From the NCBI GenBank assembly GCA_913051775.1, contig CAJXCL010000010.1:1-50711 (forward strand): DNA of 50,711 nt, given 5' to 3'. The notes below the pieces were generated by a model, which made no database searches, had not been told where the DNA came from, and was given only the letters and a program-made list of their open reading frames with translations. Positions 22,471-38,530 of the stretch are shown piece by piece (positions within the stretch are counted from its first letter, which is position 1; the number at the start of each line of letters is the position of its first letter). The DNA is from an uncultured Nitrospirota bacterium. Its GTDB lineage: Bacteria; Nitrospinota; Nitrospinia; CAJXCL01. The position numbers and the translations under genes were made by a program.

Positions 22471-23232
22471 ATGCAGAAAAGACTTCCATTATCCGTATCT
22501 CTTATTTCTTTTAATGAAGAAGATAACATTGCAAGAACATTAAGTAGTATTAAAGACATTGCGGCTGAAATTATTATTGTTGATTCTCATTCTACGGATG
22601 AAACAAGGGAAATTGCGAAAAGTTACGGTGCAAGGGTATTTGACGAAGACTGGAAAGGATATATCGCTCAAAAAAACTCTGCCATTGAAAAATGCACTGA
22701 AGAATGGATTTTATCATTGGATTGTGACGAAGTCGTTTCTAGAGAGTTAGAAGAATCTATTATTGAAAATATCCGGAATTCTGAAGCAGATGGTTATTTT
22801 ATTAACAGAAAGACTTACTACATGGGAAGGTTCTTAAAGTATGCCTGGCAGCCGGATTGGAAGTTACGAATTGTAAAAAGATCAGCAAATCCAAAGTGGA
22901 ATGGATATCATCTGCATGAATTTTTAAAAATTAGTGGATCGATTAAAAATTTGAGAGGTGATTTGTCTCATTATTCCTACAAAAACCTTGAAGATCATTT
23001 TTGCCGAACTGTCAAATACGCTAAACTTTCTGCTAAATCTTATTATGAAAAAGGTAAAAAATTTAAATGGTATAAATCCCTGCTAAATCCTATTATAGCG
23101 TTTGCGAAAGTTTTTTTTATCCAACGCGGTTTCTTGGACGGGTATCGAGGATTTATTATTGCTGTGAGCAGTTTAACCTATACTTTTTTGAAGTATGTTT
23201 TCTTGTGGGAAATCGAAAGGAATAATGAATAA
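22471..23232 (+). CDS. Family 2 glycosyltransferase, WaaE/KdtX-like (LPS core)
   Basis: The 253-residue GT-A glycosyltransferase has the nucleotide-sugar motifs SLISFNEEDNIARTL and VDSHSTDETREIAKSYGA, then LDCDEVVS (DxD, residues 84-86). The order and the phrase WKGYIAQKN match WaaE-type inner-core glucosyl/heptosyl transferases. The C-terminal 40 residues are hydrophobic and probably associate with the inner membrane. Its stop overlaps the ATG of the broken msbA copy by 8 bases. The sugar and acceptor are not determined. Confidence 0.85.
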   Translation: MQKRLPLSVSLISFNEEDNIARTLSSIKDIAAEIIIVDSHSTDETREIAKSYGARVFDEDWKGYIAQKNSAIEKCTEEWILSLDCDEVVSRELEESIIENIRNSEADGYFINRKTYYMGRFLKYAWQPDWKLRIVKRSANPKWNGYHLHEFLKISGSIKNLRGDLSHYSYKNLEDHFCRTVKYAKLSAKSYYEKGKKFKWYKSLLNPIIAFAKVFFIQRGFLDGYRGFIIAVSSLTYTFLKYVFLWEIERNNE

Positions 23233-23640
23233 CATCTTTAAAGAGGTTTCTCCGAAACAGTGGAAAAACGACATTTATACGATCAAAGAGTTGACGAAAA
23301 GTCATTCCCTGAGGCTTGCATTAGCTTGTCTCAGCGGGTTGCTTCTCTCCTCAATCAACGGTGCCATTGCCTGGTTTGTTAAACCGGTACTGGACGGCCT
23401 GTTTTTTGAAAAAAACAATGCTCTTTTAATGGTCCTTCCGATGGGGGTCATTTTTCTCTTTGTCCTTTGTGGTTTGTTTGCTTTCTCTAATAATTACCTG
23501 ATGTTTTCTACCGGAGCAAAAATTGTGAGAGTGTTTAGACACTCTGTCTTTGACAGAAATACTGAGGTTTCCCATTCCCTTTTTTTCACAAAAATCAAGC
23601 GGCTCGATAATATCGAGAGTGCTGATTGATATGAAAAAAC
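23225..23640 (+). pseudogene. Truncated duplicate of the msbA 5' end
   Basis: Residues 1-110 match the N-terminus of the full MsbA encoded at 24975, with about 18 differences by eye (shared LTKSH, SSINGAIAWFVKPVLDG). The frame then shifts. The DNA stays recognisably similar to about 23625 (ACACAAAAATCAAG-like phrase), but the translation becomes unrelated and stops at 23627-23629. No nucleotide-binding domain follows. It begins inside the end of the GT2 gene, so this was probably the original msbA position before a duplication placed the ligase gene between two copies. Confidence 0.85.
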
Positions 23641-23663: not shown

Positions 23664-24890
23664 ATGAATGCAAAGAGCATAATTAGGATTTCTAATTATT
23701 TTTTTGCTCTTAGTATGCCTATATCCCATTCAGTCGCATATATAGCATGTGGCATTGGTTTTTTTCCTGCCCTCAGGTTTTGGAAAAAGTTACGCTCTGA
23801 ACCGATTATTCTATGGGTAACAATTTTTATTGTCTATGGATTAATACACAGTTTTTTTTCAACCAAACCCGTGGTGGGATATAACACCATGTTTAACTAT
23901 TTTAGCCACTGGTTACTTCCATTTATTCTTGGTTATTCCTTATCTGAAAGAAAAAACATTCATTTTGCATTTTGGTTATATTACTGGTTACTGTTATGTT
24001 TGATATTCTTTTCAATTTTAGCTTACTTTGGACTTTTCTGGAAGAATATTGGCAATAATTATCTGGTCAATGAAGGGTTATTAAAAGGGTTTAGGCACCA
24101 TATTACCCTAGCTGCTTTGTCAATCAATCTTGCGTTTTTATCTTTTGCAATCGGGTTTTTTAATAAGGATATGAATACTAAAAAGAGATCATTTTTTATA
24201 TTAATGGGTCTGTTTCTTGTTGGTGCTGTAGGTCTTACCACTTCACGGGGTTATTATATTGCGTCGAGTATAGGTCTCTTTATCTTTTTAATTTGGTTAA
24301 TCGTTTATCATAAAAAATATTTGTTTGGTGGTGTCGTATTTATTTTTCTTATTTTAATCTCAGCCGGAGTCTATTTTGCTTCTCCAAAAGCTCGTTTAAG
24401 ATTGGAATCAGCAATAAATCTGTCTGATATTAATGTTACTGAAAGAATAAAACTATACAGAATAGCGGTAATGGAAATTGAGGACAAACCTATCTTTGGA
24501 TTTGGTCCGGGGCAATCAGTGTATCAAAAGCAATACTTCGACAAAATAGATACTGGAAATACATTTACCGAAGATGGAAACCCCAAGTATAGTCACCTGC
24601 ACTCATTTTATTTAAATCTGGCAGCCGAATTTGGATTAACCGGATTCTTGATTTTTGTCATTATTTTCTCACTCTTATTTGTAAAGTTACTTTCAATTTA
24701 CAAAACAGAATTATGTTTATCAAAGGCAGTTGGGGTAGGATTATTGTTTGGTTTTTTTTCTGTCATGGTTGGAGAATGTTTTGATACACAGTTTAGAGGT
24801 CCTCAAGTAGCAATGGATCTTTTTTGGATGGTAGGCATTATGAGTGGTGATAGCGCAAATAAAAAGGTGGCGCTCCCTGCTTTTAATTAA
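23664..24890 (+). CDS. O-antigen ligase/polymerase family membrane protein (WaaL/Wzy-like)
   Basis: The 408-residue polytopic protein has about 10-12 membrane helices and one large periplasmic loop (residues about 275-325). The loop carries GFGPGQSVYQKQYF and the family motif HLHSFYLNLAAEFGLTG (H...E.G..G). WaaL ligases attach O-antigen to lipid A-core on the periplasmic face; Wzy polymerases share the fold and cannot be excluded from sequence alone. Location between msbA copies and close to lipid A and core genes favours the ligase. An upstream remnant of msbA leaves it 35 bases after that broken frame. Confidence 0.8.
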   Translation: MNAKSIIRISNYFFALSMPISHSVAYIACGIGFFPALRFWKKLRSEPIILWVTIFIVYGLIHSFFSTKPVVGYNTMFNYFSHWLLPFILGYSLSERKNIHFAFWLYYWLLLCLIFFSILAYFGLFWKNIGNNYLVNEGLLKGFRHHITLAALSINLAFLSFAIGFFNKDMNTKKRSFFILMGLFLVGAVGLTTSRGYYIASSIGLFIFLIWLIVYHKKYLFGGVVFIFLILISAGVYFASPKARLRLESAINLSDINVTERIKLYRIAVMEIEDKPIFGFGPGQSVYQKQYFDKIDTGNTFTEDGNPKYSHLHSFYLNLAAEFGLTGFLIFVIIFSLLFVKLLSIYKTELCLSKAVGVGLLFGFFSVMVGECFDTQFRGPQVAMDLFWMVGIMSGDSANKKVALPAFN

Positions 24891-24974: not shown

Positions 24975-26744
24975 ATGGATAATATTTTTAGAGAAGTTTC
25001 TCCAAAACAGTGGAAAAATGATATTTATACGATTAAAGAGCTGACGAAAAGTCATTACCTGAGGCTTGCATTAGCCTGTGTTAGTGGGTTGTTTCTCTCC
25101 TCAATCAACGGTGCAATTGCCTGGTTTGTTAAACCGGTATTGGATGGACTGTTTGTTGAAAAAAACAATGCTCTTTTGATGGTCCTTCCGATTGGAGTCT
25201 TTTTCCTTTTTGTCTTTCGTGGTTTGTTTGCTTTCACAAATAATTATCTGATGTATTCTACCGGGGCGAAAATAGTGAGGGCAGTCAGGCAGGCGGTTTA
25301 TGAAAAAATATTGAGACTTCCCATGTCTTTTTATACACAAAAATCAAGTGGTTCTTCAATTTCAAAATTGCTTAACGATATTAAAATTCTTGAAGATCTC
25401 ATCGCCCATACAGCAAAAAACTTTTTAGTACAATCTGCTACAGTAATCGTTCTAGCTTTTGTTGCTCTATACAGAAGATGGGACCTGGCTCTTCTTTCTT
25501 TTTTTCTAGCGCCGCTTGTTGTAGTGGTTTTTGACAGGTTCGGCACAAGGATGAAAAAAACAAGCCTCAACACCCTAAAACTTATTTCCAGTGTAACAGA
25601 GATTCTCCATGAAACTTTGATGGGAATTAAAATCGTAAAATCATTTACTATGGAAAAGGAAATGAAAAGGAATAATGAACTTTCCGTCGCAGAGCATTAC
25701 AGGAATGTTATGCGGGAAGTTAGAATTAATGAATTCACGACCGTTTGTATGGAAATTATTTCTGGAGTGGGAGCAGCTGTAATCCTATGGTATGGTACTT
25801 ATCTCATAATCAGCGAAAAACTTTCCGTGGGAGAGTTTTTTTCATTCGTCACTGCGGTACTGATGATTAACACGCCTCTTAAGAGACTGAGCCAGGTCAA
25901 TAATAATTTTCAGAGAATAAGATCAGCTTTGCACAGGGTAAAGCTGATCTTTATTCTTGAAGATGAACAGGAGGGAAAAGTTGAAAAAACAGATATAGAG
26001 GGGAAAATATTGTATAAAAATGTTTCTTTTAAGTATCCAGAGTCAAAAGAAAGGGCTTTAAGTAATATTAACCTTGAAATTATGCCTGGAGAGACGGTTG
26101 CGATAGTGGGATACAGCGGCGCTGGTAAAAGCACACTTACAGACCTGCTGCTTGGATTCTGGAAAAGTTATTTCGGAGAGATTTTAATCGATGGAATTAA
26201 TATAAAAGACTTTTCTTTGCATAATATCAGGTCTCATATAGGAATTGTTTCTCAGGATATCATCCTATTTAATGATACAGCTAGAAACAATATTCTGTTT
26301 GGTAAACCGGATGCAAGCGATGAAGATATTTTGCAAGCGGCTAAAGCAGCCTATGCTCATAAGTTCATTAATGAAATGCCTCAGGGTTACGACTCTATTA
26401 TTGGAGAGCGAGGAATTAAGCTTTCTGGTGGACAGAAACAGAGAATTTCCTTGGCAAGGGCACTCATAAAAAATCCAAAAATTCTTATTTTAGATGAGGC
26501 GACATCATTGCTGGATACGGATTCTGAGATTAAAATTCAAAAGGCTCTTGAGAGTTCCATGAAAGAAAGAACAACTATAATTATTGCTCATAGATTGTCC
26601 ACAGTTCAAAAAGCGGACCGAATTATTGTTATGAACGAAGGTAACGTTATCCAGCAGGGAAATCATTCTGATCTTTCTCGACAGGACGGAGTTTATCAAG
26701 AGCTTTACAGTAAGTCTGCAATAACAGAGGCTACGGATGTTTGA
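24975..26744 (+). CDS. msbA: Lipid A flippase MsbA (ABC exporter)
   Basis: The 589-residue half-transporter has a six-helix membrane domain (residues about 20-320) and one ABC domain. Walker A is GYSGAGKST (about 379-387), the Q-loop lies in IVSQDIILF, the signature is LSGGQKQRISLARAL (about 482) and Walker B with catalytic Glu is ILILDEATSLLD (about 503). MsbA flips lipid A-core across the inner membrane using ATP. It is intact, unlike the truncated copy at 23225. Its position near an LpxL-type acyltransferase and the ligase supports the lipid A role over a generic multidrug exporter. Confidence 0.9.
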   Translation: MDNIFREVSPKQWKNDIYTIKELTKSHYLRLALACVSGLFLSSINGAIAWFVKPVLDGLFVEKNNALLMVLPIGVFFLFVFRGLFAFTNNYLMYSTGAKIVRAVRQAVYEKILRLPMSFYTQKSSGSSISKLLNDIKILEDLIAHTAKNFLVQSATVIVLAFVALYRRWDLALLSFFLAPLVVVVFDRFGTRMKKTSLNTLKLISSVTEILHETLMGIKIVKSFTMEKEMKRNNELSVAEHYRNVMREVRINEFTTVCMEIISGVGAAVILWYGTYLIISEKLSVGEFFSFVTAVLMINTPLKRLSQVNNNFQRIRSALHRVKLIFILEDEQEGKVEKTDIEGKILYKNVSFKYPESKERALSNINLEIMPGETVAIVGYSGAGKSTLTDLLLGFWKSYFGEILIDGINIKDFSLHNIRSHIGIVSQDIILFNDTARNNILFGKPDASDEDILQAAKAAYAHKFINEMPQGYDSIIGERGIKLSGGQKQRISLARALIKNPKILILDEATSLLDTDSEIKIQKALESSMKERTTIIIAHRLSTVQKADRIIVMNEGNVIQQGNHSDLSRQDGVYQELYSKSAITEATDV

Positions 26745-26800: not shown

Positions 26801-27111
26801 GTGAAGATTGCTATTAATATAGAGTACTTTTCAATGACTAAAGGTGGAGCAGAACGATCCGCATCACAATTAGCCGAAGCCTTGCCGGAGAAAGGATACT
26901 GAGAATTGGCTAGATGGATTTGTTCTTGAAGATTTACGAGATTACGCTTTGCTGTCTGAAAAACTGATGCTTTTTTCTGGCAAGAATCTCAAAGTAAGGA
27001 ATGGGAAAAAACACGCGTAAAAAAATTGAAAAATATTCTTTGCAGCGAAAAAATCAGAAAATGCTTGTTTTAGGCGAAGCAATGGCTTCCATTATGAAAA
27101 CAGTTCTTTAA
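26801..27111 (+). pseudogene. Family 4 glycosyltransferase remnant with internal deletion
   Basis: A GTG at 26801 opens MKIAINIEYFS then KGGAERSASQLAEALPEKGY, the classic N-terminus of GT4 LPS glycosyltransferases, and stops at 26902. In other frames just after it are DGFVLEDLRDYALLSEKL and KIEKYSLQRKNQKMLVL, which look like the GT4 C-terminus (GFVLEDP... and KYSxxR.. phrases). About 250 central residues are missing. The remnant follows msbA by 56 bases and runs into the end of the convergent lpxL gene. Nothing else is visible in the 26745-27091 gap. Confidence 0.65.
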
Positions 27112-28051
27112 TATTTTCATACTCTTTCCAGCGTCTGTGTATCCACAAATATTGTTCAGGGTATTTGCGAACGATATATTCAGTTTTTTTGTGTATTTCT
27201 TCAGTAAGGCGGTAAATTTCCTGTTTTTCACTTTTGTAGTCCTTGGCCGGCCATATCGGGTCGCTGAGAAACCCTTCAAATTGAAAACTGTTATTTTTTC
27301 TGCAGCATGCCACCACAACAATTGGTCTTTGATAGGTTACGGCAAGTACTGCCGGTAGAGGTGTAGTATTAGCTTTACGGCCGAAAAAATTGACGGCTAT
27401 TCCTTTCATGGTTCCCTGGTCGGGAAGAATCCCTATAGATTTTCCTTTGCGAAGAAAATTTTTAAGGGTAAACAGGGCATTTTTTTTTTTAATAATAATC
27501 TGGCCGCTTGCAGAGCGATTTTTAAATAACATATTTTCTAGGAAAATATTGTCAAGTGGCCGCACTACAATTGCAAGAGGAATTCCTATGACTGCGCTGG
27601 CATACAGGAGGAGTTCCCAGTTTCCAATATGTGGAGTGATAAATATACACCCTTTTGACTCGTCATGTATCTTTTTTGCTTTTTGAAAAAGCTTTTTAAT
27701 CTCCTCTGTTATCTCTAAAGAATTTTGATCACCAGAAGCTTCTTTTGAGAGAAATCGGAACTTTAAAATTTCTGAAAGCATCAAAAAAAACGAATGAAAG
27801 CTTTGGAGAGCAATATGCTTTATTTCCTTTTCATCTTTTTGACCGTTAAATGCGTTTCGTATATTGTCAATTGCAACCTGGCGTCGACTTGGTACAAAAA
27901 CATAAAGTAAATAAGCAAGAAAATGACTGAATAAATTCATAAAGCTGAATGGCACAATTCGGAAGAGAAACATCGCGGAATATATTAATGCGTATTCACA
28001 GAAATAAATAAACTTTCCTTTTCTCCATTTCTTTTTCCGTTTTTTTTTCAT
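27092..28051 (-). CDS. lpxL: Lipid A secondary acyltransferase (LpxL/HtrB family)
   Basis: The 319-residue protein has a basic N-terminus, a membrane segment (residues about 14-52) and the acyltransferase signature HIGNWE (H141, E146; HX4E). Further motifs are ILPDQGT and FFGRKANTTPLPAVLA. LpxL enzymes move an acyl chain from ACP to the hydroxyacyl group of Kdo2-lipid A at the inner membrane. Its start overlaps the stop of the upstream ketosynthase gene by 4 bases, so it is the last gene of the fatty-acid cluster and the likely user of its product. LpxM or a phospholipid acyltransferase of the same family are alternatives. Confidence 0.85.
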   Translation of the reverse strand: MKKKRKKKWRKGKFIYFCEYALIYSAMFLFRIVPFSFMNLFSHFLAYLLYVFVPSRRQVAIDNIRNAFNGQKDEKEIKHIALQSFHSFFLMLSEILKFRFLSKEASGDQNSLEITEEIKKLFQKAKKIHDESKGCIFITPHIGNWELLLYASAVIGIPLAIVVRPLDNIFLENMLFKNRSASGQIIIKKKNALFTLKNFLRKGKSIGILPDQGTMKGIAVNFFGRKANTTPLPAVLAVTYQRPIVVVACCRKNNSFQFEGFLSDPIWPAKDYKSEKQEIYRLTEEIHKKTEYIVRKYPEQYLWIHRRWKEYENIKELFS

Positions 28052-29337
28052 TTGGTTTCAACCAATACTGACGTGGATTGTCCGCCTATTCCGTAGCTGA
28101 TGGATAAAAAACGATCTTTATCACATGATTGGTGGGAGTTTGATATATTTAATTTTAAAAATTCTTTCTCAGCTTTTTCAAAATTTAATGTAGCAGGAAT
28201 CATTCTATCAGTTACAGATTTTAATCCTAAAATAATCTCTCCCACATCGCTTGCAGCCCCTATATGCCCAGTATATGACTTAAAGCCGCAAATCGGTATT
28301 TCAGGTTTCTTATTATTTGATATTTTGATGATCGAGCTTAGTTCTGAGGCGTCCCCTTTTTTAGTGCCGCTTCCATGCAAGCTAATAAAAGCAAGATCAT
28401 TTATGCAAGAGTCAGCCTCTTTCATAATCATTTCAATATTTCTTTTAATGATATTGGGTGTAACAGTTAACCCCGGGTCAGGTGAAGGTTCAAAACAGTT
28501 TTCAAATTTGCTTAATTTTCCAAGTATCTCTGCACCTCGATGATTTGCCGCATCAGCTGATTCTAAAAAAATGGCAGCACCGCCTTCTCCGGTTATAAAC
28601 CCATCTCTATTTTTATCAAATGGTTTGAATGAAGATATCCCATTTTTGCATTTTGAGAGTATTCCTAAGCCATGAAGTTCCTGAAGAGGCACTTCAGTTA
28701 TCCAATTCCCGCATCCAACCGCTAAGGCAACATCTGCCTCGTTGTGCGCAATACTTCTGTGCGCCAATTCGAGAGCATGTATGCCGCAGGGAGATAGAGA
28801 TGCCAGAGTTGTATTGGGACCCATAAACTCAAAATAAGCGGATAAAAAGCTGAACAAATTGTTTGCAATAGACTGAAGAAGAAAAAAGGGGTTAACCTTG
28901 TTCAAGGCCGAACTATTTAATTTTTCAAAATCCATCTTCTGCCATTTGTTATCAGTCCCATCCTTTATCGCAGGGTACATGAAATGGCTGTCAATTTGAG
29001 AAAAATCTCCAGAAGCAATGTATAACGCGCGTCGTTCAGGAGGAACATCAGAAATATTAATCTCAGAATGAGTGAGAGCTTCACATGCAGAACTGAATCC
29101 GAGCAAAGAACCTCGGTTCAGGAACTTCCTCTGGCTTAATAGTTTAGGGTGAATGTTTTCCGGGATATCAAACTCTGCTACTTTACCGTAATATTGTAAA
29201 TATTCCGGTAGCCCATCTTCAGGGAAATAAGCTATCCCAGTTTTCATTGCCTTCAGGTTTTCCCAATTCTCCTTAACATTTTTGCCGAGAGGCGTAACAA
29301 TCCCCATTCCTGTAATTACAACTTCTCTATTAGACAT
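28048..29337 (-). CDS. Divergent beta-ketoacyl-ACP synthase (KAS-A of the cluster)
   Basis: The 429-residue thiolase-fold condensing enzyme has all three catalytic residues: C184 in SLSPCGIHALE, H321 in SLHGSGTKKGD and H358 in SYTGHIGAASD. The Cys and His surroundings depart from the usual FabF wording (TACASG, HGTST), which suggests an unusual acyl substrate. It condenses acyl groups with malonyl-ACP in fatty acid elongation. It is followed by lpxL with a 4-base overlap and preceded by a 148-base gap containing repeat-like debris. It is the most divergent of the three Cys-containing synthases here. Confidence 0.88.
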   Translation of the reverse strand: MSNREVVITGMGIVTPLGKNVKENWENLKAMKTGIAYFPEDGLPEYLQYYGKVAEFDIPENIHPKLLSQRKFLNRGSLLGFSSACEALTHSEINISDVPPERRALYIASGDFSQIDSHFMYPAIKDGTDNKWQKMDFEKLNSSALNKVNPFFLLQSIANNLFSFLSAYFEFMGPNTTLASLSPCGIHALELAHRSIAHNEADVALAVGCGNWITEVPLQELHGLGILSKCKNGISSFKPFDKNRDGFITGEGGAAIFLESADAANHRGAEILGKLSKFENCFEPSPDPGLTVTPNIIKRNIEMIMKEADSCINDLAFISLHGSGTKKGDASELSSIIKISNNKKPEIPICGFKSYTGHIGAASDVGEIILGLKSVTDRMIPATLNFEKAEKEFLKLNISNSHQSCDKDRFLSISYGIGGQSTSVLVETK

Positions 29338-29485
29338 AATATTGTCCAGCGGCCAGGGACCAGGTTACAGGGACACGAGTTTTTGTTTTTGATCCCCGAT
29401 AACTGAACCCTGACTCCTGAATTATTAATCTTTATGTCTCAGCGCCCCTTCGGTAAATTAAACCTGGTTGCACCTGCTACGCGTA

Positions 29486-29944
29486 TTATATTTTTAAGTT
29501 GAGCTTCCTGGTTAAAACTTGAAAGAATCTCTTTTGTTCATCAGTATTTTCTATTTCTGAAAGAGGGATTATTTTTCCCTCGAATTCCGACTTGATTATC
29601 TTTTTCCCACCAACAGTCCCGGTTCCTTTATAAGTTTTTACTGAAGAGTTTGGTTCAGCCATTGTTTCCATTACCAGTTCAACCTGATCCCCGGGGTATG
29701 CAAAGCCATAAAAATTGGATTTGTTAACCTTATTTATTAAGAACCAGTTGTTAAAATCAGAGGACACTGCCTCAAGCCAGCCCGCAAGCTGAACTAATGC
29801 CTCCAATAATAGCACTCCTGGCATAATCGGGTTTTTTGGAAAATGGAATTCAAGGAAATCTTCACTCATTGTTACATTTTTAATTCCCTTAATTTTTTCT
29901 TTACTTTTCCATTCAACAATATGATCAATTAACAAGTAACGCAT
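29486..29944 (-). CDS. FabZ-like 3-hydroxyacyl-ACP dehydratase (hotdog 1)
   Basis: I chose ATG 29944, which gives 152 residues starting MRYLLIDHIVEWK. This matches the start of the paralogue at 33311, whereas the longer frame adds 17 unrelated residues. The hotdog core shows H34 in EFHFPKNPIMPGV and E48 in LLLEALVQLAGW, the FabZ catalytic pair. It removes water from 3-hydroxyacyl-ACP. A duplicate dehydratase lies at 32859; two may serve different chain lengths or subunits. Confidence 0.85.
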   Translation of the reverse strand: MRYLLIDHIVEWKSKEKIKGIKNVTMSEDFLEFHFPKNPIMPGVLLLEALVQLAGWLEAVSSDFNNWFLINKVNKSNFYGFAYPGDQVELVMETMAEPNSSVKTYKGTGTVGGKKIIKSEFEGKIIPLSEIENTDEQKRFFQVLTRKLNLKI

Positions 29945-30063
29945 AATTAATAGTTTCCCTTTACGAATGTTGATTGACGAATAAAACAACACCATTTATA
30001 AATTGCAAGCTTAAATCTAAAATCGTAAATCGTCAACCGTAATTTGGTTGCGGCTCTGCCGCG

Positions 30064-30831
30064 TTACGCTATGCTCAATCCTCCATCAATGGAAATTGCT
30101 TGGCCGGTAATGTAATTTGACTTTTCAGAGGCAAGGAACAATACAAGGTTTGCAATCTCAACGGGTTCTCCAAATCTTCCAACCGGAATATTTTTAAGAA
30201 TTTCCTCACCTGCTTTCTTTCTGATGCGTTTACTCATTGCAGTTAAAATCATTCCCGGTAGAACAGCGTTTACCTGAATACCCTTTCCAGCAAGCTCAAC
30301 AGCGCATGCTCTTGTAAAAGAAATCAAACCTCCCTTGGCAGCTGCATAATTAGTCTGTCCACGGCCGCCTTTTATAGAGCTTATAGAAGCGATATTTATT
30401 ATTTTCCCATAATGATTAAGCATCATCATTTCTGCCGCGCATTTGGTACAGAGAAATGCTCCTCTCAAATTAACATCCTGCACCACATCCCAATCTGAAA
30501 GTTTCATGCTTAATAACAAGCTATCTTTAATAGTTCCAGCATTATTGACAAGGATGTCCAATTGATTAAACTTTTTTCTAATAAAATCGAAAAGGGTAAA
30601 GACCTCCTCGCTGTTTGAAACGTCGGCTTTAAAAACATCAGCTTTATGGCCAAAAGTGGAGATTTCTTTTTTAAGTATTTCCGCGCTATCCCCTGATTTG
30701 TTGTAATTGATAATAACTTTTGCCCCGGCATTAGAAAGAAGCAGACTAATGTCCTTTCCAATTCCTTTTGCTCCCCCTGTAACCAGGGCAACTTTACCTG
30801 ATAAATCCAATTTCATTTCTTTTAAAGGCAT
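30064..30831 (-). CDS. fabG: 3-oxoacyl-ACP reductase FabG
   Basis: The classical SDR has TGGAKGIG (cofactor loop), NNAG, IASISS and YAAAK (Y162, K166), so all catalytic residues are present. The 255-residue form starts at ATG 30831; ATG 30816 (MKLDLSGKVALV) is equally possible, and an upstream GTG at 30849 falls in repeat-like sequence. FabG reduces 3-oxoacyl-ACP with NADPH. It lies between KAS-B and hotdog 1 in the same direction, and is the only fully canonical ketoreductase of the cluster. Confidence 0.9.
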   Translation of the reverse strand: MPLKEMKLDLSGKVALVTGGAKGIGKDISLLLSNAGAKVIINYNKSGDSAEILKKEISTFGHKADVFKADVSNSEEVFTLFDFIRKKFNQLDILVNNAGTIKDSLLLSMKLSDWDVVQDVNLRGAFLCTKCAAEMMMLNHYGKIINIASISSIKGGRGQTNYAAAKGGLISFTRACAVELAGKGIQVNAVLPGMILTAMSKRIRKKAGEEILKNIPVGRFGEPVEIANLVLFLASEKSNYITGQAISIDGGLSIA

Positions 30832-30887
30832 TTTTGCCACGATGATCACGAAGAGTAGAAAGGAAACGAAATCATAAGAAGGAATTT

Positions 30888-30916
30888 CTTCGTGTTTTTC
30901 GTGTGCTTCGTGGTTT
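30888..30916 (+). repeat. Dispersed repeat R3 (CTTCGTG phrase), copy in the KAS-B/fabG gap
   Basis: CTTCGTGTTTTTCGTGTGC continues with TTCGTGGTTT. Related phrases occur at 33367-33394, 37577-37601 and 43459-43481, all in intergenic DNA. Confidence 0.5.
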
Positions 30917-30964
30917 CATATCATCAGTGTAGTTTGTGAAATCTGCGGTTCTATTTCTTTTTGG

Positions 30965-32248
30965 TTATGCTCTATATTTCTTTACAACAATTGTTGCGTT
31001 CTGCCCGCCAAATCCAAATGAATTGGATATCGCGGCCCTGACAGGCCTCTTTCTTTTCCCACTACTCACATAATCCAGATCGCATTTAGGATCAGGATTG
31101 GTAATATTTATAGTAGGATGAATTTGATCTCTCTCAACACTTAAGACTGTAAACACAAACTCAGGTCCACCAGAAGCCGCTATAAAATGCCCAATAAGGG
31201 ATTTGCTGGAGCTTATGGAGATGCCGTTGGCATTTTCCTTAAAAACCTTTTTAATTGCAAGTGTTTCTGTGGAATCATTCAGTTTTGTACTTGTACCGTG
31301 AGCATTAATATAATCTATCTCATCAATCTTCATATGAGCGTCTTTCAGCGCGGCATTCATTGACTGCTCTGCTCCGTTTCCTTTAGGATGCGGGGCCGTG
31401 ACCTGAAAGGCATCCATAGAGGAGCCATAACCCGCAACTTCCGCGTATATCTTCGCTCCTCTTTTAAGCGCATGAGATTCTTCCTCAAGAATTGCTGTAC
31501 CCGCACCCTCGCCCATTACAAGTCCGGACCTTTTTCTGTCAAAAGGACGGCAGAGTCCATGAGAATTAGAAGAAGAAACGCATGCTGCCTGAAGTAGAAC
31601 AAAAAAGACAAGTCCCATTGGATTTATCATAGAATCTGCTCCGCCCGCAACCATAAGATCAGCATCGCCTCTTTGAATTGTTTTGTATGCTATGCCTACG
31701 GCTTGTGTGGCTGAAGCGCAGGCAGACGTAATCGTATAGTTGGCTCCTTTTAAACTAAACTTTCGGGCAATTAAAGAGGCAGCTCTATTAGAATTGTTTT
31801 TTACAATAGATTCTTTGTGCGCATTTTTATATTTTTTACTGAATTGATCACAATCGAACTCTCCTTTCTTGTTCATAAAATTTTGCACATCTTCCAATCT
31901 GGTAATCCCAAGCCCGGCGGCAAAAGCAACTCCAAAACGGTTACTATATTTCTTGTCTTGATTAACACCGGCATCATTAAGAGCTGACTTTGCCGTCCAT
32001 AACCCAAACAGTGTTCTTCTCTCGCCTTCGCATGATACATACTCCTTAAACTCTTCTTTTATCTTATTCCAATTTTCTTCTTTTATCTTTCCAACAGCCT
32101 GAACAGGTGACTTTTCAGCGCCGAGATAAGCAAGCCGGCTGATACCGGACTCACCGGCAAGCGCCTTTTCCCAATTTTCCTCAACATCAAGACCAAGTGG
32201 TGTGGCCAACCCAAGCCCTGTAACAACGACCTTTTTTTTGACAGTCAT
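30965..32248 (-). CDS. Beta-ketoacyl-ACP synthase II-like (KAS-B of the cluster)
   Basis: The 427-residue FabF-type synthase has an intact triad: C177 in SACASATQAVG, H317 in INAHGTSTKLND and H354 in LIGHFIAASG. The N-terminus is VVVTGLGLATPLG. It carries out malonyl-ACP dependent chain elongation. It lies downstream of a hicBA remnant and 115 bases upstream of fabG. Of the four synthases it is closest, with KAS-D, to ordinary FabF. Confidence 0.9.
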   Translation of the reverse strand: MTVKKKVVVTGLGLATPLGLDVEENWEKALAGESGISRLAYLGAEKSPVQAVGKIKEENWNKIKEEFKEYVSCEGERRTLFGLWTAKSALNDAGVNQDKKYSNRFGVAFAAGLGITRLEDVQNFMNKKGEFDCDQFSKKYKNAHKESIVKNNSNRAASLIARKFSLKGANYTITSACASATQAVGIAYKTIQRGDADLMVAGGADSMINPMGLVFFVLLQAACVSSSNSHGLCRPFDRKRSGLVMGEGAGTAILEEESHALKRGAKIYAEVAGYGSSMDAFQVTAPHPKGNGAEQSMNAALKDAHMKIDEIDYINAHGTSTKLNDSTETLAIKKVFKENANGISISSSKSLIGHFIAASGGPEFVFTVLSVERDQIHPTINITNPDPKCDLDYVSSGKRKRPVRAAISNSFGFGGQNATIVVKKYRA

Positions 32249-32280
32249 ATGGGAAAAAGTAAACTATATTATAGGCAGCT

Positions 32281-32724
32281 TCATTCTTTAATATTAATAT
32301 TCCTTCCTATTATATTTTCTACTTCTTGTATCATCATACGAAGTTGAGGTATGGAATATTCAGAATTGGAGGGAATTGCTAAAACGGTGATGTTCGTAGC
32401 CCATAAACTGAAGATAAATAGCTGAAATTGGACCGTCAAAACCAAGTATACGCAATCGTCCAATAAAAACTCTACGTTTTTACAGGGATCTAACGGCCCA
32501 TGAGCAGTCTCCTTGTTCAGGTCAATATTTTCAATCACAGGCAAGGAATGCCCCAATTTGAGGCCAATCCAAATCCAGTCCTCTAAAGTGGAATGCAGTC
32601 TATCCTCACAGTCTCGCAATGTATTTCCAAATGCTACAACTCCTTTGCAAGAAGGAATCTTCCCTACAAATGTGCCGTCTTCCAGCTTGTCATATGAAGC
32701 ATGTGATAAAGCCTTTTCTACATA
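32281..32724 (-). pseudogene. Degenerate hicB-hicA toxin-antitoxin remnant
   Basis: Reading the minus strand, 32724-32509 gives VEKALSHASYDKLEDGTFVG then TLRDCEDRLHSTLEDWIWIG and LKLGHSLPVIENIDLN, the HicB antitoxin pattern, but a TAG precedes it and no start codon is in frame. From about 32500 a second frame gives RLRILGFDGP and LQFMGYEHHRF, the HicA toxin core, then stops. A frameshift restores IPSNSEYSIPQLRMMIQEVE, the HicA C-terminus. HicA is an mRNA interferase and HicB its antitoxin; neither can be made here. The remnant sits between two fatty-acid genes. Confidence 0.7.
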
Positions 32725-32858
32725 TTGCTAAGAATGTACCGGACCACCATTTTACAACTCTCTTACTATTGTTTTCTAAATATATGTCAACATAGATTAG
32801 AATAATCTGATATAGCCTGAGAAATATAATATATAATATCAAAAATTTGCTGAAATAG

Positions 32859-33311
32859 TCAAACAACCCCTTTTTCTTTCAGTCCGCTGTAATAGGTGAA
32901 TAATTTTTCTAACTCTTCTGAACGAACTTTATGAAAATGGCTGTAAATGATGCGGTCCATTGAGGCAATTGTTTTACCATCCACTAAAATCTTTGCTTTG
33001 CCAAGCGAGTCTCTACTTGAGGTAGAAATAATTTCTCCCTTAATCTCTGCTTTAAAACCCGGTCTTAAATTATAAGAAATATTTACGTTTTCCACTAAAG
33101 ACATAATCGCGGAAAGTTTGAAATCATTAGAGTAAATGATCAACCAGCCAAGAAGCTGTGCCATAGCCTCAATAAAAATCACTCCTGGAACAAAAGCAAC
33201 TTTGCTGAAGTGACTCCTGAGAAATTCTTCTGAAAGAGAAAAGGTTTTAACTCCGGTTATGGATTTTCCTTTCTCTATATGAGTTACGTTATCGTAATAT
33301 AAAAATCGCAT
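32859..33311 (-). CDS. FabZ-like 3-hydroxyacyl-ACP dehydratase (hotdog 2)
   Basis: The 150-residue single hotdog protein begins MRFLYYDNVTHIEKGK, like its paralogue at 29944. The catalytic pair is H34 (RSHFSKVAFVPGV) and E48 (FIEAMAQLLGW). The usual HFP(G/K)xP reads HFSKVA, so the active-site loop is divergent. It could be a second dehydratase or a partner subunit of hotdog 1. It lies 89 bases downstream of the Cys-less synthase KAS-C, across a palindromic repeat. Confidence 0.82.
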   Translation of the reverse strand: MRFLYYDNVTHIEKGKSITGVKTFSLSEEFLRSHFSKVAFVPGVIFIEAMAQLLGWLIIYSNDFKLSAIMSLVENVNISYNLRPGFKAEIKGEIISTSSRDSLGKAKILVDGKTIASMDRIIYSHFHKVRSEELEKLFTYYSGLKEKGVV

Positions 33312-33329
33312 AAATAAATTGAATTTGCT

Positions 33330-33394
33330 ACGAAGACAGTCCCCTTACGGGGGATTAAGGGGGATGTCTTCGTGTCTTCGTACCTTTGTGGTAA
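33330..33394. repeat. Palindromic repeat with C-rich core plus R3 phrase
   Basis: GAAGACAGTCCCCTT and AAGGGGGATGTCTTC form the arms around ACGGGGGATT, followed by GTGTCTTCGTACCTTTGTGG. It is related to the C-rich palindrome at 43097. It occupies most of the gap between KAS-C and hotdog 2. Confidence 0.55.
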
Positions 33395-33400
33395 AAAAAA

Positions 33401-34690
33401 TCATTTCACAGCCTCAATGATCAAAGATGCACACTGTCCTTCATAAGATTGACAGTTTACCATAATTCTTTTTGGAATTGCTCGTAATAGAGATTTATTG
33501 ACGAGATTGAACTTGATATTTTTATCAGAAAGTAAGGAATTAAGAGTCGGAGGAATTACACCATTTTTTAGCATATAAATTCCTAAAACAGTATCAACTG
33601 CAGCTGCGCCTGCCAGTAAATGACCTAAAGCGCCTTTTGAAGAATATACATTCACAGTATCTATACAATCTGAAAAAACCAGGTGTATTGCTTCAATCTC
33701 ATTTTTATCCCCAATACATGTACCATCACCATGAACAATTATTGCGTCAATATCCGATGACTGAATCTCTGCTTTGTCAATTGCTTCTTTCATAGCATGA
33801 GAGATGGCTCTTGCCGTAGGACCTGAAAATTCTTCTTCGCTCTCAAAAGCGAAGCCGTAACCAGCAATACCGGCCAGAGACTGGACACCCCGTTTATTTG
33901 CGGACGAACGCGATTCCAGAGTCATCATGCCGCAACCCTCTCCTAAAATAGTCCCATTCCTGTTAGCGGCAAAAGGACGACATAACATTTCACCGTCTCT
34001 TTCCGATGTGTTTAATATTTTAAAAAGATGAGCACGTGCAAGGCTTAAAGGAGATACTTTTTCGCTGACACCACCCGCAAGAACTGCCTTTGCTCTTTTA
34101 CCACGAATGGCATTCATGCCTTCGATAATAGCCTGCACCCCGGAGTCGGAGTGCGGAGAAAACACCGCGTTTTCACCTTTGAGGTTTAAACTGATTGCTA
34201 CCTGGCAAAATGTTATATTGTTCAGCATTGAAAGAGGCCATAAGGGATATATCTCCTGGTATCCACCTGAATAAAACAAGCTGTAATCAAGATTAGATTC
34301 AGAATCCAATGATTTCATAACTGAAGGCATGAGATCCTGAACTTTATAATCAACCATCCCCATACCGACAAAAAAACCGATGTCTTCTTCTTTAAGAGGT
34401 GTTTTGTCCAGGCTGGAGTGCATGAATGCGTCACGAGTGCATTTCAGAAGCATATAGGAATGTTTATCCATTATCCGGGCGTCCCTTGGATGAACATCCA
34501 ACGAAGAATGGTCAAGACCCTGAACCTGGGCGGCAACCCGGCATTCAAATCCTTTTGCGTCAAAATCTTTTATCGGCAGGGTTCCGTGCTTTCCGGAAAG
34601 TAACACATCCCATGTTTTAGATGCAGTCAGGCCCAGGGAAGATACCAATGCTACTCCGGTAACAACAACACTCTCATCCTCATTTTTCAT
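33401..34690 (-). CDS. Ketosynthase-like protein lacking the active-site Cys (KAS-C, chain-length-factor-like)
   Basis: The 429-residue protein has the FabF fold (VVVTGVALVSSLG; CRPFAANRNGTILGEG). The nucleophile position reads FSPHSDSGVQAI, with Ser181 where Cys is expected; H320 (HGDGT) and H357 (ALGHLLAG) are kept. It therefore cannot form the normal acyl-Cys intermediate and probably acts as a KSbeta/chain-length-factor partner or a decarboxylase. Its start overlaps the end of KAS-D by 11 bases, the arrangement of KSalpha-KSbeta pairs and of the two fabF genes in rhizobial acpXL loci. It is complete and not decayed. Confidence 0.85.
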   Translation of the reverse strand: MKNEDESVVVTGVALVSSLGLTASKTWDVLLSGKHGTLPIKDFDAKGFECRVAAQVQGLDHSSLDVHPRDARIMDKHSYMLLKCTRDAFMHSSLDKTPLKEEDIGFFVGMGMVDYKVQDLMPSVMKSLDSESNLDYSLFYSGGYQEIYPLWPLSMLNNITFCQVAISLNLKGENAVFSPHSDSGVQAIIEGMNAIRGKRAKAVLAGGVSEKVSPLSLARAHLFKILNTSERDGEMLCRPFAANRNGTILGEGCGMMTLESRSSANKRGVQSLAGIAGYGFAFESEEEFSGPTARAISHAMKEAIDKAEIQSSDIDAIIVHGDGTCIGDKNEIEAIHLVFSDCIDTVNVYSSKGALGHLLAGAAAVDTVLGIYMLKNGVIPPTLNSLLSDKNIKFNLVNKSLLRAIPKRIMVNCQSYEGQCASLIIEAVK

Positions 34691-36077
34691 ATTCGCCTAA
34701 GCATAAGCACGAGTTCTGACCCCCAAAACCAAAAGAATTTGAGATCGCTTTCCGGTGTTTTTTACTTCTTGCCTCATTCGGCACATAATCGAGATCACAC
34801 TTTGGATCAGGATGATCATAATTAATGGTAGGTAAGAGAATTGAACGGTTTATACCTATAAGCGTTAAAATAAACTCTATAGCGCCCGCCGCGGCAATCG
34901 TATGTCCTAACATTGATTTATTGGAATATACCGGAATACCTTCTGCCTTTTCTCCGAATATTTCTTTGATTGCCCGGGTTTCAGTTAAATCATTTTGCTG
35001 AGTGGATGTTCCATGCGCATTAATGCAATCGATGTTATCCGAGCTAATAGAGGCGTCTTCCAAAGCTCTTCTCATGGCTATTTTAGCTCCCTCTCCTTTG
35101 GGATGTGTATCAGTAATTCTATACGCATCCGCAGAAGAGCCGTATCCAAAAAGTTCACCTGATATTGGAATACCCCTTGACCTGGCATGTTCTAATTCTT
35201 CTAAAATAACAACTCCGGCGCCTTCAGACAATACAAACCCATTTCTTCTCCTATCGAAAGGTCTGGAAGCTGTTTGAGGTGTTTTATATTTTTCCGTTAA
35301 AGCCTTTAGCAGAACAAATCCCATAAGACCAGTAAAATCCAGAGTAGCCTCACCGCCTCCCGCGATCATAACATCACACTTACCTTCCTGAATTACTTTA
35401 TATGCCTCTCCAATAGCCTGTGAACCGGCCGCACATGCGGATACTAGGGAAAAATTATGTCCTTTGCAGTTAAATAACTTTGAAAGGATAGATGCCGCTA
35501 CATCAGGTTTTCTGCGAAAAAATTTAAGATACGAATACCCGCCTGCCTGCGTGAGCCTTTTCATATCCCAATTTCCGTTCCCGTCATAAAACTTGTGCAG
35601 GAACATCATGTCTTCTACTTTGGGGTTGTCTCCGTGGGTGCCGATTGAAACGCCGATTTTTTCGCGGTTTGTTACTTTATTGAGTTTTGCCTGTTGTACG
35701 GCTTCAAGAGTTGCAATTCGTAATAATTTAAGCGCGCGGGAAGAAAATTTTTCCAACCTTTGTGCCTGACTATTTTCACTATTGTTATTCAGGCATGCGT
35801 CATCAACTTCTCCACCTATCCGGCAGGGTAGTCCTTTAGTTTCAAAAGAGGAGATAAAATCAATGCCGGAACGACCATTACTGGCGTTTTCAAATGTTTC
35901 TTCAGTATTTTTTCCTAAAGGAGTGATCATCCCGTAGCCGGTAATCACTACTCTGCGCTGCGAATTTGTAAAATTATGTTTTTTTAGCAAAGATTTTGTT
36001 AAGCAATTTGGCGGTAGCCCTTTTGGTACTGGCCCTGCCATCCTGCGCTTAGAAGACGTTTTTTTCTTTCTGGACAT
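34680..36077 (-). CDS. Beta-ketoacyl-ACP synthase (KAS-D, catalytic partner of KAS-C)
   Basis: The 465-residue FabF-type enzyme has C215 in SACAAGSQAIG, H355 in INAHGTSTQQND and H392 in MLGHTIAAAG, all intact. An extra basic N-terminus of about 40 residues precedes VVITGYGMITPLG; a start at the Met at residue 13 is possible. It overlaps the ACP gene by 29 bases upstream and KAS-C by 11 bases downstream, so the three are probably made together. It should perform the condensation for the KAS-C/KAS-D pair. Confidence 0.9.
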   Translation of the reverse strand: MSRKKKTSSKRRMAGPVPKGLPPNCLTKSLLKKHNFTNSQRRVVITGYGMITPLGKNTEETFENASNGRSGIDFISSFETKGLPCRIGGEVDDACLNNNSENSQAQRLEKFSSRALKLLRIATLEAVQQAKLNKVTNREKIGVSIGTHGDNPKVEDMMFLHKFYDGNGNWDMKRLTQAGGYSYLKFFRRKPDVAASILSKLFNCKGHNFSLVSACAAGSQAIGEAYKVIQEGKCDVMIAGGGEATLDFTGLMGFVLLKALTEKYKTPQTASRPFDRRRNGFVLSEGAGVVILEELEHARSRGIPISGELFGYGSSADAYRITDTHPKGEGAKIAMRRALEDASISSDNIDCINAHGTSTQQNDLTETRAIKEIFGEKAEGIPVYSNKSMLGHTIAAAGAIEFILTLIGINRSILLPTINYDHPDPKCDLDYVPNEARSKKHRKAISNSFGFGGQNSCLCLGEYEK

Positions 36078-36609
36078 TTTTCAACCATTCTTTAATTAAA
36101 TCATCTCCATTAGCAAAAACAGCATATTCTTCGCATGATCCGCATTTAATGCGTGTTTTTTTATCTAATTTCCATGCTGAATTACCGCACGCGCATTTTT
36201 CAGGAAGAGAATTGAGGATATCCATAACACCACTTGTGATTGACTGGACCGTAATTAAGGCAGGTACTTCATCAACATCCGCACCGTGGTTTAAATCAGG
36301 AAGATCATCTTCGAACCGTACCTTCAAGAGTTCGATAGCTTTATCAGTCAGCTGATTGTTTTCATCAATAGCAGAGCCCTCACCAAACATCTCTTCAATA
36401 TGTTCAAGGATAAAGTGGCGCGCCATTTTAATCCCGAAGCTCTGTTCCAGCCTATAATTTATATCAAGAAAATCTAGGGATTCAGCGCCTATATCATTTA
36501 TCAGAGAACTTTCAGGTTTAATAGTTTCTTCCTTAGCGCTTAGCGTTTCAACGATAGCTTTTTTCATCTCATCAATAACCATTTGTTCAGAAATGAAATT
36601 TTGTTTCAT
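36049..36609 (-). CDS. AcpXL-like acyl carrier protein fused to a C-terminal zinc ribbon
   Basis: The 186-residue protein starts after a clear GGAGG. Residues about 8-100 are an ACP with the phosphopantetheine Ser44 in DIGAESLDFLDINYRLEQ. This wording, followed by SFGIKMARHF, resembles rhizobial AcpXL (the very-long-chain ACP) more than FabC/AcpP. Residues 101-135 are a linker. C139, C141, C156 and C159 (CACGN, then KCGSCEE) form a zinc-ribbon-like knuckle. Normal ACPs are about 80-95 residues, so the tail is unusual and may dock partner enzymes. The gene lies between the FabL-like SDR (17-base gap) and KAS-D (29-base overlap). Confidence 0.85.
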   Translation of the reverse strand: MKQNFISEQMVIDEMKKAIVETLSAKEETIKPESSLINDIGAESLDFLDINYRLEQSFGIKMARHFILEHIEEMFGEGSAIDENNQLTDKAIELLKVRFEDDLPDLNHGADVDEVPALITVQSITSGVMDILNSLPEKCACGNSAWKLDKKTRIKCGSCEEYAVFANGDDLIKEWLKNVQKEKNVF

Positions 36610-36626
36610 AATTCCTCCGAAAAATT

Positions 36627-37391
36627 TTATCTATAAAGTCTACTGCTGAGCCCTTTGTCAACAACAATAGTTTGTCCATGCATTCCCCTGCTTGCCTCAT
36701 CACATAAAAACAATACCACATCCGCTATTTCATCCGGTTTCACAAACATATCATCCGGTATTTTATTTACTTCTTCCATGTATTGTCTCAATACTTTAAA
36801 AGAGTCGGTTTTAACAAGCCCTGCACAAATGCCATTAACAGAAATGTTTTTTTCTTTAAGACTCTCCGCACAGTCTCTTACAACACTTTCCATGGCGGCT
36901 TTCATGCTTCCGAGTGGGTAGGATTCATTGTAAAAGCGGCTTCCAAGACTTGAGATAAAGATCACCTTGCCCCCGGATTTTTCCAGCAGCGGAAGTGCTT
37001 CCTGAATACAGAAGATGTTTCCCATGTAATTAGTTTCAACCAACTGCCTGAGTTCCCGCTCAAAAAGTTTTTCAATTGGTTTAAAAGGAGCTTTTGCGGC
37101 ATTCAAAATAAGAAAATCCAGCCTACCGTATTTTTCATTTGTTCCATTGAACAATGCCTTAACAGAATCTTTTTTAGAAATATCAGCCTGGATAAAAAAT
37201 GCCTTGCGACCCATTTCATTTATTTCATTGCATAAAGTCTCTCCCTGTTTTTGAGACGTGCCGCCAGCTTTGCGGTAATTTATAATAACATCCGCGCCTG
37301 ATAAAGCGAACTTTTTAGCAATCGCACTCCCTATACCGCGGGAACTGCCAGTTATTAAAGCGACTTTATTATCAAACAAAACTTTCCTCAT
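36627..37391 (-). CDS. FabL-like SDR, candidate enoyl-ACP reductase
   Basis: I chose ATG 37391 (254 residues); a longer frame runs into repeat R2a and gives a non-SDR N-terminus. The fold shows TGSSRGIG, ILNAAKAPFKP and ISSLGSRFYNESYPLGSMKAA. The SSLGS..Y...Y phrase is that of FabL (enoyl-ACP reductase III). FabL has Y-x6-K; here Y158 and K164 are spaced Y-x5-K, so activity is likely but not certain. It could instead be a ketoreductase. It is the first gene of the cluster, downstream of the promoter at 37534-37562. Confidence 0.75.
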   Translation of the reverse strand: MRKVLFDNKVALITGSSRGIGSAIAKKFALSGADVIINYRKAGGTSQKQGETLCNEINEMGRKAFFIQADISKKDSVKALFNGTNEKYGRLDFLILNAAKAPFKPIEKLFERELRQLVETNYMGNIFCIQEALPLLEKSGGKVIFISSLGSRFYNESYPLGSMKAAMESVVRDCAESLKEKNISVNGICAGLVKTDSFKVLRQYMEEVNKIPDDMFVKPDEIADVVLFLCDEASRGMHGQTIVVDKGLSSRLYR

Positions 37392-37420
37392 AGGTTTTAA
37401 GAAGTGTAAGTTTATTTGAT

Positions 37421-37490
37421 TTCGGCCATCCATGGCCTCAACCCTTCGGGCGGCTTTCCTTCGGAAACCGTCCAATTCGATTTTCCTTAC
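37421..37490 (+). repeat. Dispersed repeat R2, copy a
   Basis: It contains GGCCATCCATGGCC and a hairpin GGGCGGCTTTCC/GGAAACCGTCC followed by AATT. Other copies are at 43335-43380 (inverted) and 44484-44540. Confidence 0.65.
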
Positions 37491-37777: not shown

Positions 37778-38530
37778 ATGATAAATCTTAAAGACAAAGT
37801 TGCTGTTGTAACCGGCGCTGCTAATGAAAAGGGTAGGGCAGTCTGCAAAGCTCTGGCAAATAACAAGGCAAAAGTTGTTATTCACTACTTTAAAAATCAG
37901 GAAATGGCAGAATTTCTTCTTAATGAGATTAAAAAAGAAGAGGGGGAAGCGTTTATTTATCAGGCTGATATTAGGAACCAGAAAGAAGTGAAAAACTTAT
38001 TTAAAAAAGTAACAGCCAAATATGGTTCGGTAAATGTACTGGTTAATAATGCCCATGAGAAAATCAAAAGAAATTTCTTTGTAGACACAACATGGGAAGA
38101 GCACCAGACGCAAATAGATGTGATAACAAGAGGGAGCTATTACTGTATTCAGGAATCCTTGAAGGCAATGTTGAAAAACAGTGAAGGTTCAATTATTAAT
38201 ATACTGAACACTCAGGTTAATATGCCGGTAAAAGGCTACAGCAGTTTTACAACAGCTATGTCTGCGATGGTCGGAATGACCCGGAATCTTGCGCGGGAAG
38301 TGGGACATGATGGTGTGCGCGTAAATATGATTGCCCCTGGGTTTATTGTAGGCAAAAAATCAGAACACGCCCCTTTTTTCATTCAGGAGAAAATTATTGA
38401 GCAGACCCCTCTCAAAAGACTTGCAACTCCGGAAGACATTGCCAATGCGGTACTTTTCTTAGCTTCAAACCTTTCCGGTTTTGTTACCGGCGGCTATCTC
38501 GTTGTAGATGGTGGCATGGTCATGCTTTAG
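37778..38530 (+). CDS. Divergent SDR with altered catalytic site
   Basis: The 250-residue Rossmann protein begins VAVVTGAANEKGRAVC and ends with a normal SDR tail (GGYLVVDGGMVML). Key sites are changed: the NNAG motif reads NNAH, the catalytic Ser region reads INILNTQVN, and the Tyr/Lys pair reads YSSFTTAM (Y154, M161), so the catalytic Lys is Met. It is probably not a standard reductase; a structural or regulatory role is possible. It is transcribed away from the fatty-acid cluster, whose first gene also encodes an SDR. The reading frame is intact. Confidence 0.75.
   Translation: MINLKDKVAVVTGAANEKGRAVCKALANNKAKVVIHYFKNQEMAEFLLNEIKKEEGEAFIYQADIRNQKEVKNLFKKVTAKYGSVNVLVNNAHEKIKRNFFVDTTWEEHQTQIDVITRGSYYCIQESLKAMLKNSEGSIINILNTQVNMPVKGYSSFTTAMSAMVGMTRNLAREVGHDGVRVNMIAPGFIVGKKSEHAPFFIQEKIIEQTPLKRLATPEDIANAVLFLASNLSGFVTGGYLVVDGGMVML

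Follow-up and report, generated by a model that had tools for sequence, protein, structure and literature searches.

The window (i.e., the whole 50,711-nucleotide stretch of DNA analyzed here) contains the gene for an acyl carrier protein (ACP) of 186 aa that appears to represent a conserved ACP type, undescribed so far, in which the carrier domain is followed by a zinc-ribbon-like hairpin. We refer to this protein, encoded at 36609..36049 on the minus strand, as ACPZ. A search of the open-access literature, which does not prove novelty, found no relevant paper on a zinc-ribbon ACP. ACPZ is probably the dedicated ACP of a specialized type II fatty acid pathway that feeds lipid A, as AcpXL does, with a Cys4 ribbon holding structural Zn(II) as its recognition module. 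The architecture, the cysteine conservation, and the gene context (a conserved gene triad and lipid A genes) were computed; the zinc, the docking, and the product we infer.

Architecture of ACPZ

The gene and its parts are as follows.

36049..36609, minus strand: ACPZ, ACP with inserted helices and a predicted C-terminal zinc ribbon, 186 aa (PF00550, homologs, AlphaFold2)
36478..36480, minus strand: Ser44 codon, predicted 4'-phosphopantetheine attachment site in DIGAESLDFLD (invariant in alignment A1)
36256..36423, minus strand: insertion between ACP helices II and IV, approximately residues 63 to 118, with helices 67-75 and 89-102 (AlphaFold2, comparison with ribbonless ACPs)
36052..36210, minus strand: predicted zinc ribbon (Cys139, Cys141, Cys156, and Cys159; strands 146-149 and 153-156) and C-terminal helix 168-183 (AlphaFold2, homologs, profile matches)

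The start codon is the ATG at 36609, preceded by a good ribosome-binding site, ggaggaattATG, and the opposite (plus) strand is closed by many stops. A sequence-only reading of this DNA had placed an ACP with a C-terminal Cys motif at 36049-36609; the coordinates were right, and the strand, which it did not give, is minus. The architecture for which it proposed a search combined a PP-binding domain with a zinc ribbon. The former was found, with PF00550 matching residues 15 to 70 at 22.8 bits (gathering score, 20.8). The latter was recovered in part, through profile matches to solved zinc ribbons; the named Pfam zinc-ribbon families gave only weak matches, all below cutoff.

The full-length AlphaFold2 model, built from a 28-row alignment, had a mean pLDDT of 89.9 and a pTM of 0.85. 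It places helix I at residues 8 to 23, helix II at 44 to 58, two extra helices at 67 to 75 and 89 to 102, helix IV at 121 to 132, and a final helix at 168 to 183. The helical fold is that of an ACP, and ACPs were the best Foldseek matches. The AcpXL-like character proposed earlier was borne out: the best sequence match in the PDB was 2kw2, and Foldseek aligned 2kw2/3lmo over 120 columns. The expectation that the ACP would end at about residues 80 to 95 was not, since helix IV lies at 121 to 132 and the tail begins near 134. An insertion of about 50 residues separates helix II from helix IV, so that the modeled carrier domain extends to approximately residue 133, and the extra module comprises residues 134 to 186 only. 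The insertion is absent from the AcpP of the window genome, which has separate canonical ACPs (TIGR00517 type).

Conservation and fold of the C-terminal tail

ACPZ contains exactly four cysteines (139, 141, 156, and 159), spaced CxC-X14-CxxC, and the modeled beta hairpin (146-149/153-156) sits between the two pairs. Homologs from 34 loci found in a genome-collection search were combined with those from whole-genome searches, and removal of duplicates left 53 distinct proteins. All 53 carry CX1-2C-X13-15-CX2C, so the Cys positions, whose variability had been named in advance as a possible objection, are invariant. The first pair is CXXC in 49 proteins (44 of them with X14) and CXC in 4, including the window protein; these four forms show that the geometry of the putative metal site tolerates change. 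No further Cys was present in the part compared in 42 of the 53. Alignment A1 revealed other invariant tail residues, namely, W146, A163, G168, D169, L171, W175, L176, and Q180. Because the tail recurs in 53 proteins from three phyla, it is not a piece of some neighboring gene.

The zinc-ribbon identity suggested for the tail was upheld by the conserved Cys4 set, the modeled hairpin, and the profile matches, the best of which was to eS27 (E = 0.0028). Foldseek comparison of the tail-only model with the PDB gave mostly ribosomal zinc-ribbon proteins as top matches, none of them significant. The model shows, at high confidence, a zinc-ribbon-like hairpin plus a C-terminal helix in the tail, with zinc as the presumed metal. 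The ribbon had a pLDDT of approximately 92 to 95 in the full-length model versus 70 for the tail folded alone, and these confidence values suggest that it packs on the ACP body.

Ribbonless relatives and origin of the ribbon

Desulfobacterota genomes encode ACPs of approximately 132 aa that have the helix II-IV insertion and no ribbon, located inside multi-ketosynthase clusters (L074 to L081). Three further loci (L095 to L097) likewise show such ACPs in Desulfobacterota clusters of several ketosynthases, and the L095 cluster includes a thioester-reductase-like gene. Since these ribbonless proteins carry the same insertion, the insertion is the more widespread of the two traits, and this ACP type presumably gained the ribbon, loss of the ribbon being less likely. 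In a tree of the ACP domain only, the ribbon proteins formed one side of a single branch (support, 97), which fits a single gain, with the reservation that the ribbonless proteins are few and have long branches.

These relatives also bear on whether the ribbon is purely structural, i.e., whether with the C-terminal helix it stabilizes the enlarged ACP or shields a very long acyl chain and makes no contact specific to a partner. The apparent packing of the ribbon on the body and its constant association with the insertion would fit such a role. However, insertion-bearing ACPs exist without a ribbon in multi-ketosynthase clusters, so the insertion can do without the ribbon, and we regard a purely structural role as rather unlikely.

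A gene cluster for a probable specialized fatty acid pathway

ACPZ lies in a cluster of ten genes (27092-37475), beyond which, across a short gap from the LpxL end, are an MsbA-like exporter, an O-antigen-ligase-like gene, and a glycosyltransferase. The genes other than ACPZ that define this context are as follows.

36627..37475, minus strand: FabL-like SDR, probable dedicated enoyl-ACP reductase, directly upstream of ACPZ (PDB match, NF005975, synteny)
34680..36077, minus strand: FabF-like ketosynthase (KS), Cys/His/His intact, directly downstream of ACPZ (TIGR03150, 431 bits; active-site residues; synteny)
33401..34690, minus strand: ketosynthase-like protein without the active-site Cys, chain-length-factor (CLF)-like (PF00109/PF02801; SACAAGSQA replaced by PHSDSGVQA)
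32859..33311, minus strand: FabZ-like dehydratase (PF07977)
30965..32248, minus strand: second FabF-like ketosynthase, active site intact (profile match, active-site residues)
30064..30849, minus strand: FabG-like ketoacyl-ACP reductase (TIGR01830, 276.8 bits)
29486..29995, minus strand: second FabZ-like dehydratase (PF07977)
28048..29337, minus strand: third ketosynthase-like protein (PF00109; SLSPCGIHA at the active-site motif)
27092..28051, minus strand: LpxL-type lipid A late acyltransferase (PF03279, 140 bits; PRK08419, 149.5 bits)
24975..26744, plus strand: MsbA-like lipid A exporter, LPS context (TIGR02203, 508 bits, below the cutoff of 602)
23664..24890, plus strand: O-antigen-ligase-like protein (Wzy_C), LPS context (PF04932, 69 bits)

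The only PDB match of the FabL-like SDR at an E value of ≤1e-30 was the enoyl-ACP reductase 3oic/3oid (3.3e-39); its score against the FabL model NF005975 was 210 bits, below the cutoff of 328. The ORF of the adjacent FabF-like ketosynthase (34680-36077) has a basic N-terminal extension of approximately 38 aa and overlaps ACPZ by 29 bp. Its true start is probably internal, because most homologs are about 431 aa long and have no such extension.

Several other details of the locus were recorded. Between FabZ and the second ketosynthase, approximately 610 bp (32249-32858) hold no clear gene; the sole recognizable piece is a UPF0150-like fragment (ORF 32281-32619), and the stretch is perhaps a decayed insertion. 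A further SDR gene (37778-38530) lies divergent from the cluster just past its upstream end. Upstream of the MsbA-like transporter gene (24975-26744), at 23195-23629, part of it is repeated as a truncated copy (123 aa at 76% identity); the O-antigen-ligase-like gene lies between the copies, and the LPS locus is thus partially duplicated. In the related clusters of L085, L086, L107, and L109, a holo-ACP synthase gene lies between FabG and FabZ; the window has none at this position (29996-30063), and therefore another phosphopantetheinyl transferase must activate ACPZ. A search of the window against Rfam gave no match.

Full and compact loci and the link to lipid A

The order FabL-like reductase-ACPZ-FabF-like KS was found in all 34 loci of the first survey (in L029, the contig ends within the reductase gene). 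The full form runs reductase-ACPZ-KS-CLF-FabZ-KS-FabG-(AcpS)-FabZ-KS-LpxL, seen with small differences in the window, L086, L107, L109, and L110; LpxL closes the full cluster in the window, L086, L089, L110, and L111. In the compact form, the triad (reductase-ACPZ-KS) stands alone. A tree of ACPZ plus KS requires at least three changes between the two forms.

Triad-only genomes keep their CLF and LpxL parts at other sites, so the pathway is split in them, not lost. A CLF homolog 42 to 61% identical to that of the window was located elsewhere in 9 of the 10 compact-form genomes searched, and in 4 of those 9 it was on the same contig, near the LpxL homolog. The genome G079 keeps ACPZ and LpxL and has no close CLF.

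Lipid A genes also occur beside compact triads. Genes for lpxI, gnnA, or gnnB lie within 6 kb of the triad in eight compact loci, and kdsA-kdsD-kdsC does so in a ninth; in the majority of compact loci, no lipid A gene lies within that distance. On the complete chromosome of G079, lpxD-fabZ-lpxA-lpxI-gnnA-gnnB is followed by mltD (on the other strand) and then by the triad, GnnA and GnnB being assigned from below-cutoff family matches plus position. This adjacency is not fully independent evidence, because it is common to related genomes. In the window genome, where LpxC is present, a whole-genome search found the LpxL-type gene at 27092..28051 to be the only PF03279 member. The link proposed earlier, with an LpxL-type acyltransferase and with dedicated ketosynthases, is thus supported by the position of LpxL at the end of full clusters, its uniqueness in the window genome, and the CLF and LpxL genes elsewhere in triad-only genomes. 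Gene content and order make a link between the ACPZ pathway and lipid A well supported.

We consider it unlikely that the cluster product is instead an aryl-polyene-like or other polyunsaturated membrane lipid, attached elsewhere by an LpxL-like enzyme. A KS with a CLF-like partner, two FabZ-like dehydratases, and an acyltransferase do recall aryl polyene clusters. The KS/CLF pairing that marks such clusters is present here (the KS at 34680 is intact, and the CLF-like protein at 33401 lacks the Cys), and there were weak matches to cispentacin Amc models. However, the FabL-like reductase is constant in the triad, which suggests full reduction, and all ten cluster genes (27092-37475) were given a family, with no ammonia lyase, ligase, or other aryl-starter gene among them. 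Moreover, triads can adjoin lpxD-fabZ-lpxA, and the cluster LpxL is the only one that the window genome has.

Distribution and probable transfer between phyla

ACPZ homologs were found mostly in Nitrospirota and in a few Desulfobacterota. Among genomes sampled from the phylum of G079 (Nitrospiraceae labeled), 38 of 396 had ACPZ, and a 39th match (G107) was ribbonless. For the phylum of G083 (Desulfosarcina labeled), the count was 4 of 395. In the window's own phylum, it was 1 of 77, namely, the window genome itself. Misbinning of the contig as the cause of this absence was ruled out by an aminotransferase gene on the same contig (46109-47344). Its product is 65 to 74% identical to full-length copies in the window's phylum and 34 to 44% identical to those of ACPZ-bearing Nitrospirota/Desulfobacterota genomes (except G716, at 64%); being closer to own-phylum copies, it indicates that the contig belongs to its genome. 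Window ACPZ, in turn, is up to 75% identical to the copy in a Nitrospiraceae-labeled genome, and horizontal acquisition is therefore the simplest reading of its presence in the window.

Proposed role of the ribbon

In the lipid A pathway that we favor, Ser44 of ACPZ would be primed by a holo-ACP synthase. The enzyme set suggests that the KS/CLF-like pair, FabG, the two FabZ proteins, and the FabL-like reductase would then build a special chain on it, probably long and either saturated or hydroxylated. Judging from gene context, the LpxL-type acyltransferase, or LpxA/LpxD, would transfer this chain to lipid A. The Cys4 ribbon would hold structural Zn(II) and, packed together with the final helix, form a rigid knob on the ACP. 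The likeliest job of the ribbon is protein-protein recognition, for which it may dock the always adjacent FabF-like ketosynthase and/or the reductase, and it may also keep generic FAS enzymes off ACPZ. Such a role would best account for a ribbon that is invariant and apparently rigid, given neighboring enzymes that are always present.

It had also been suggested that the tail senses metal or redox state, and such a Cys4 site might switch acyl delivery. CxxC pairs can in principle be redox active, and the window protein has the CxC variant; the regular zinc-ribbon spacing, the very high conservation, and the fact that no regulatory gene was regularly linked in the loci inspected give this idea no support and make it very improbable. 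An accidental fusion or annotation artifact is ruled out by the 53 homologs with the same tail, which form one group on the ACP-domain tree.

We tentatively put forward a bolder version of the recognition hypothesis, which may well not hold in full: ACPZ would define an undescribed ACP class whose ribbon is a private docking key for one ketosynthase, one reductase, and one lipid A acyltransferase, excluding generic FAS, in a pathway mobile between phyla. ACPs are among the most uniform of small proteins, and how several ACP pathways are kept separate in one cell is a standing question. With an invariant metal ribbon fused to the carrier, ACPZ would offer a removable module for a direct test of carrier specificity. 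ACPZ also points to a specialized acyl chain on the lipid A of Nitrospirota and some Desulfobacterota, about whose outer membranes little is known.

Comparison with known systems

Canonical AcpP (TIGR00517) shares the PP-binding fold and the Ser site with ACPZ, but it is 77 to 80 aa long and has neither insertion nor ribbon. The ribbonless ACPs of about 132 aa (L074 to L081) have the same core and insertion and adjoining KS, FabG, and AcpS genes; unlike ACPZ, to which they are approximately 33 to 39% identical, they end at helix IV, without the ribbon or the C-terminal helix.

For the tail, zinc-ribbon ribosomal proteins (eS27, eL37, and related proteins) have the same two-CxxC hairpin fold, whereas they bind RNA; the matches were weak or nonsignificant, and common descent is not claimed. 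DUF35/PhlB proteins are Cys4 zinc-ribbon proteins that assemble thiolase-superfamily enzymes in thiolase/HMGCS complexes (PMC6392133). A profile search found no sequence relation between them and the ACPZ tail, and their ribbon is attached to an OB fold instead of an ACP; by analogy only, they are a functional precedent for docking by the ACPZ ribbon.

The nearest solved ACP in both sequence and fold is AcpXL (PDB 2kw2 and 3lmo), the rhizobial carrier of the lipid A VLCFA. The rhizobial genes acpXL-fabZ-fabF2-fabF1-adh-lpxXL are an established lipid A VLCFA cluster (PMC11901934). Like AcpXL, ACPZ is longer than an ordinary ACP and is clustered with fabZ, two fabF genes, and an LpxL-type acyltransferase gene (AcpXL gene order from PMC11901934). 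AcpXL, however, is approximately 92 to 101 aa long and has no Cys4 ribbon. On this evidence ACPZ probably acts as AcpXL does, but we do not class it as AcpXL, since its score with the AcpXL model (NCBIfam PRK06508/NF005079) was 42.6 bits, below the cutoff of 83. The partner genes differ as well, ACPZ being accompanied by a constant FabL-like reductase and a CLF-like ketosynthase.
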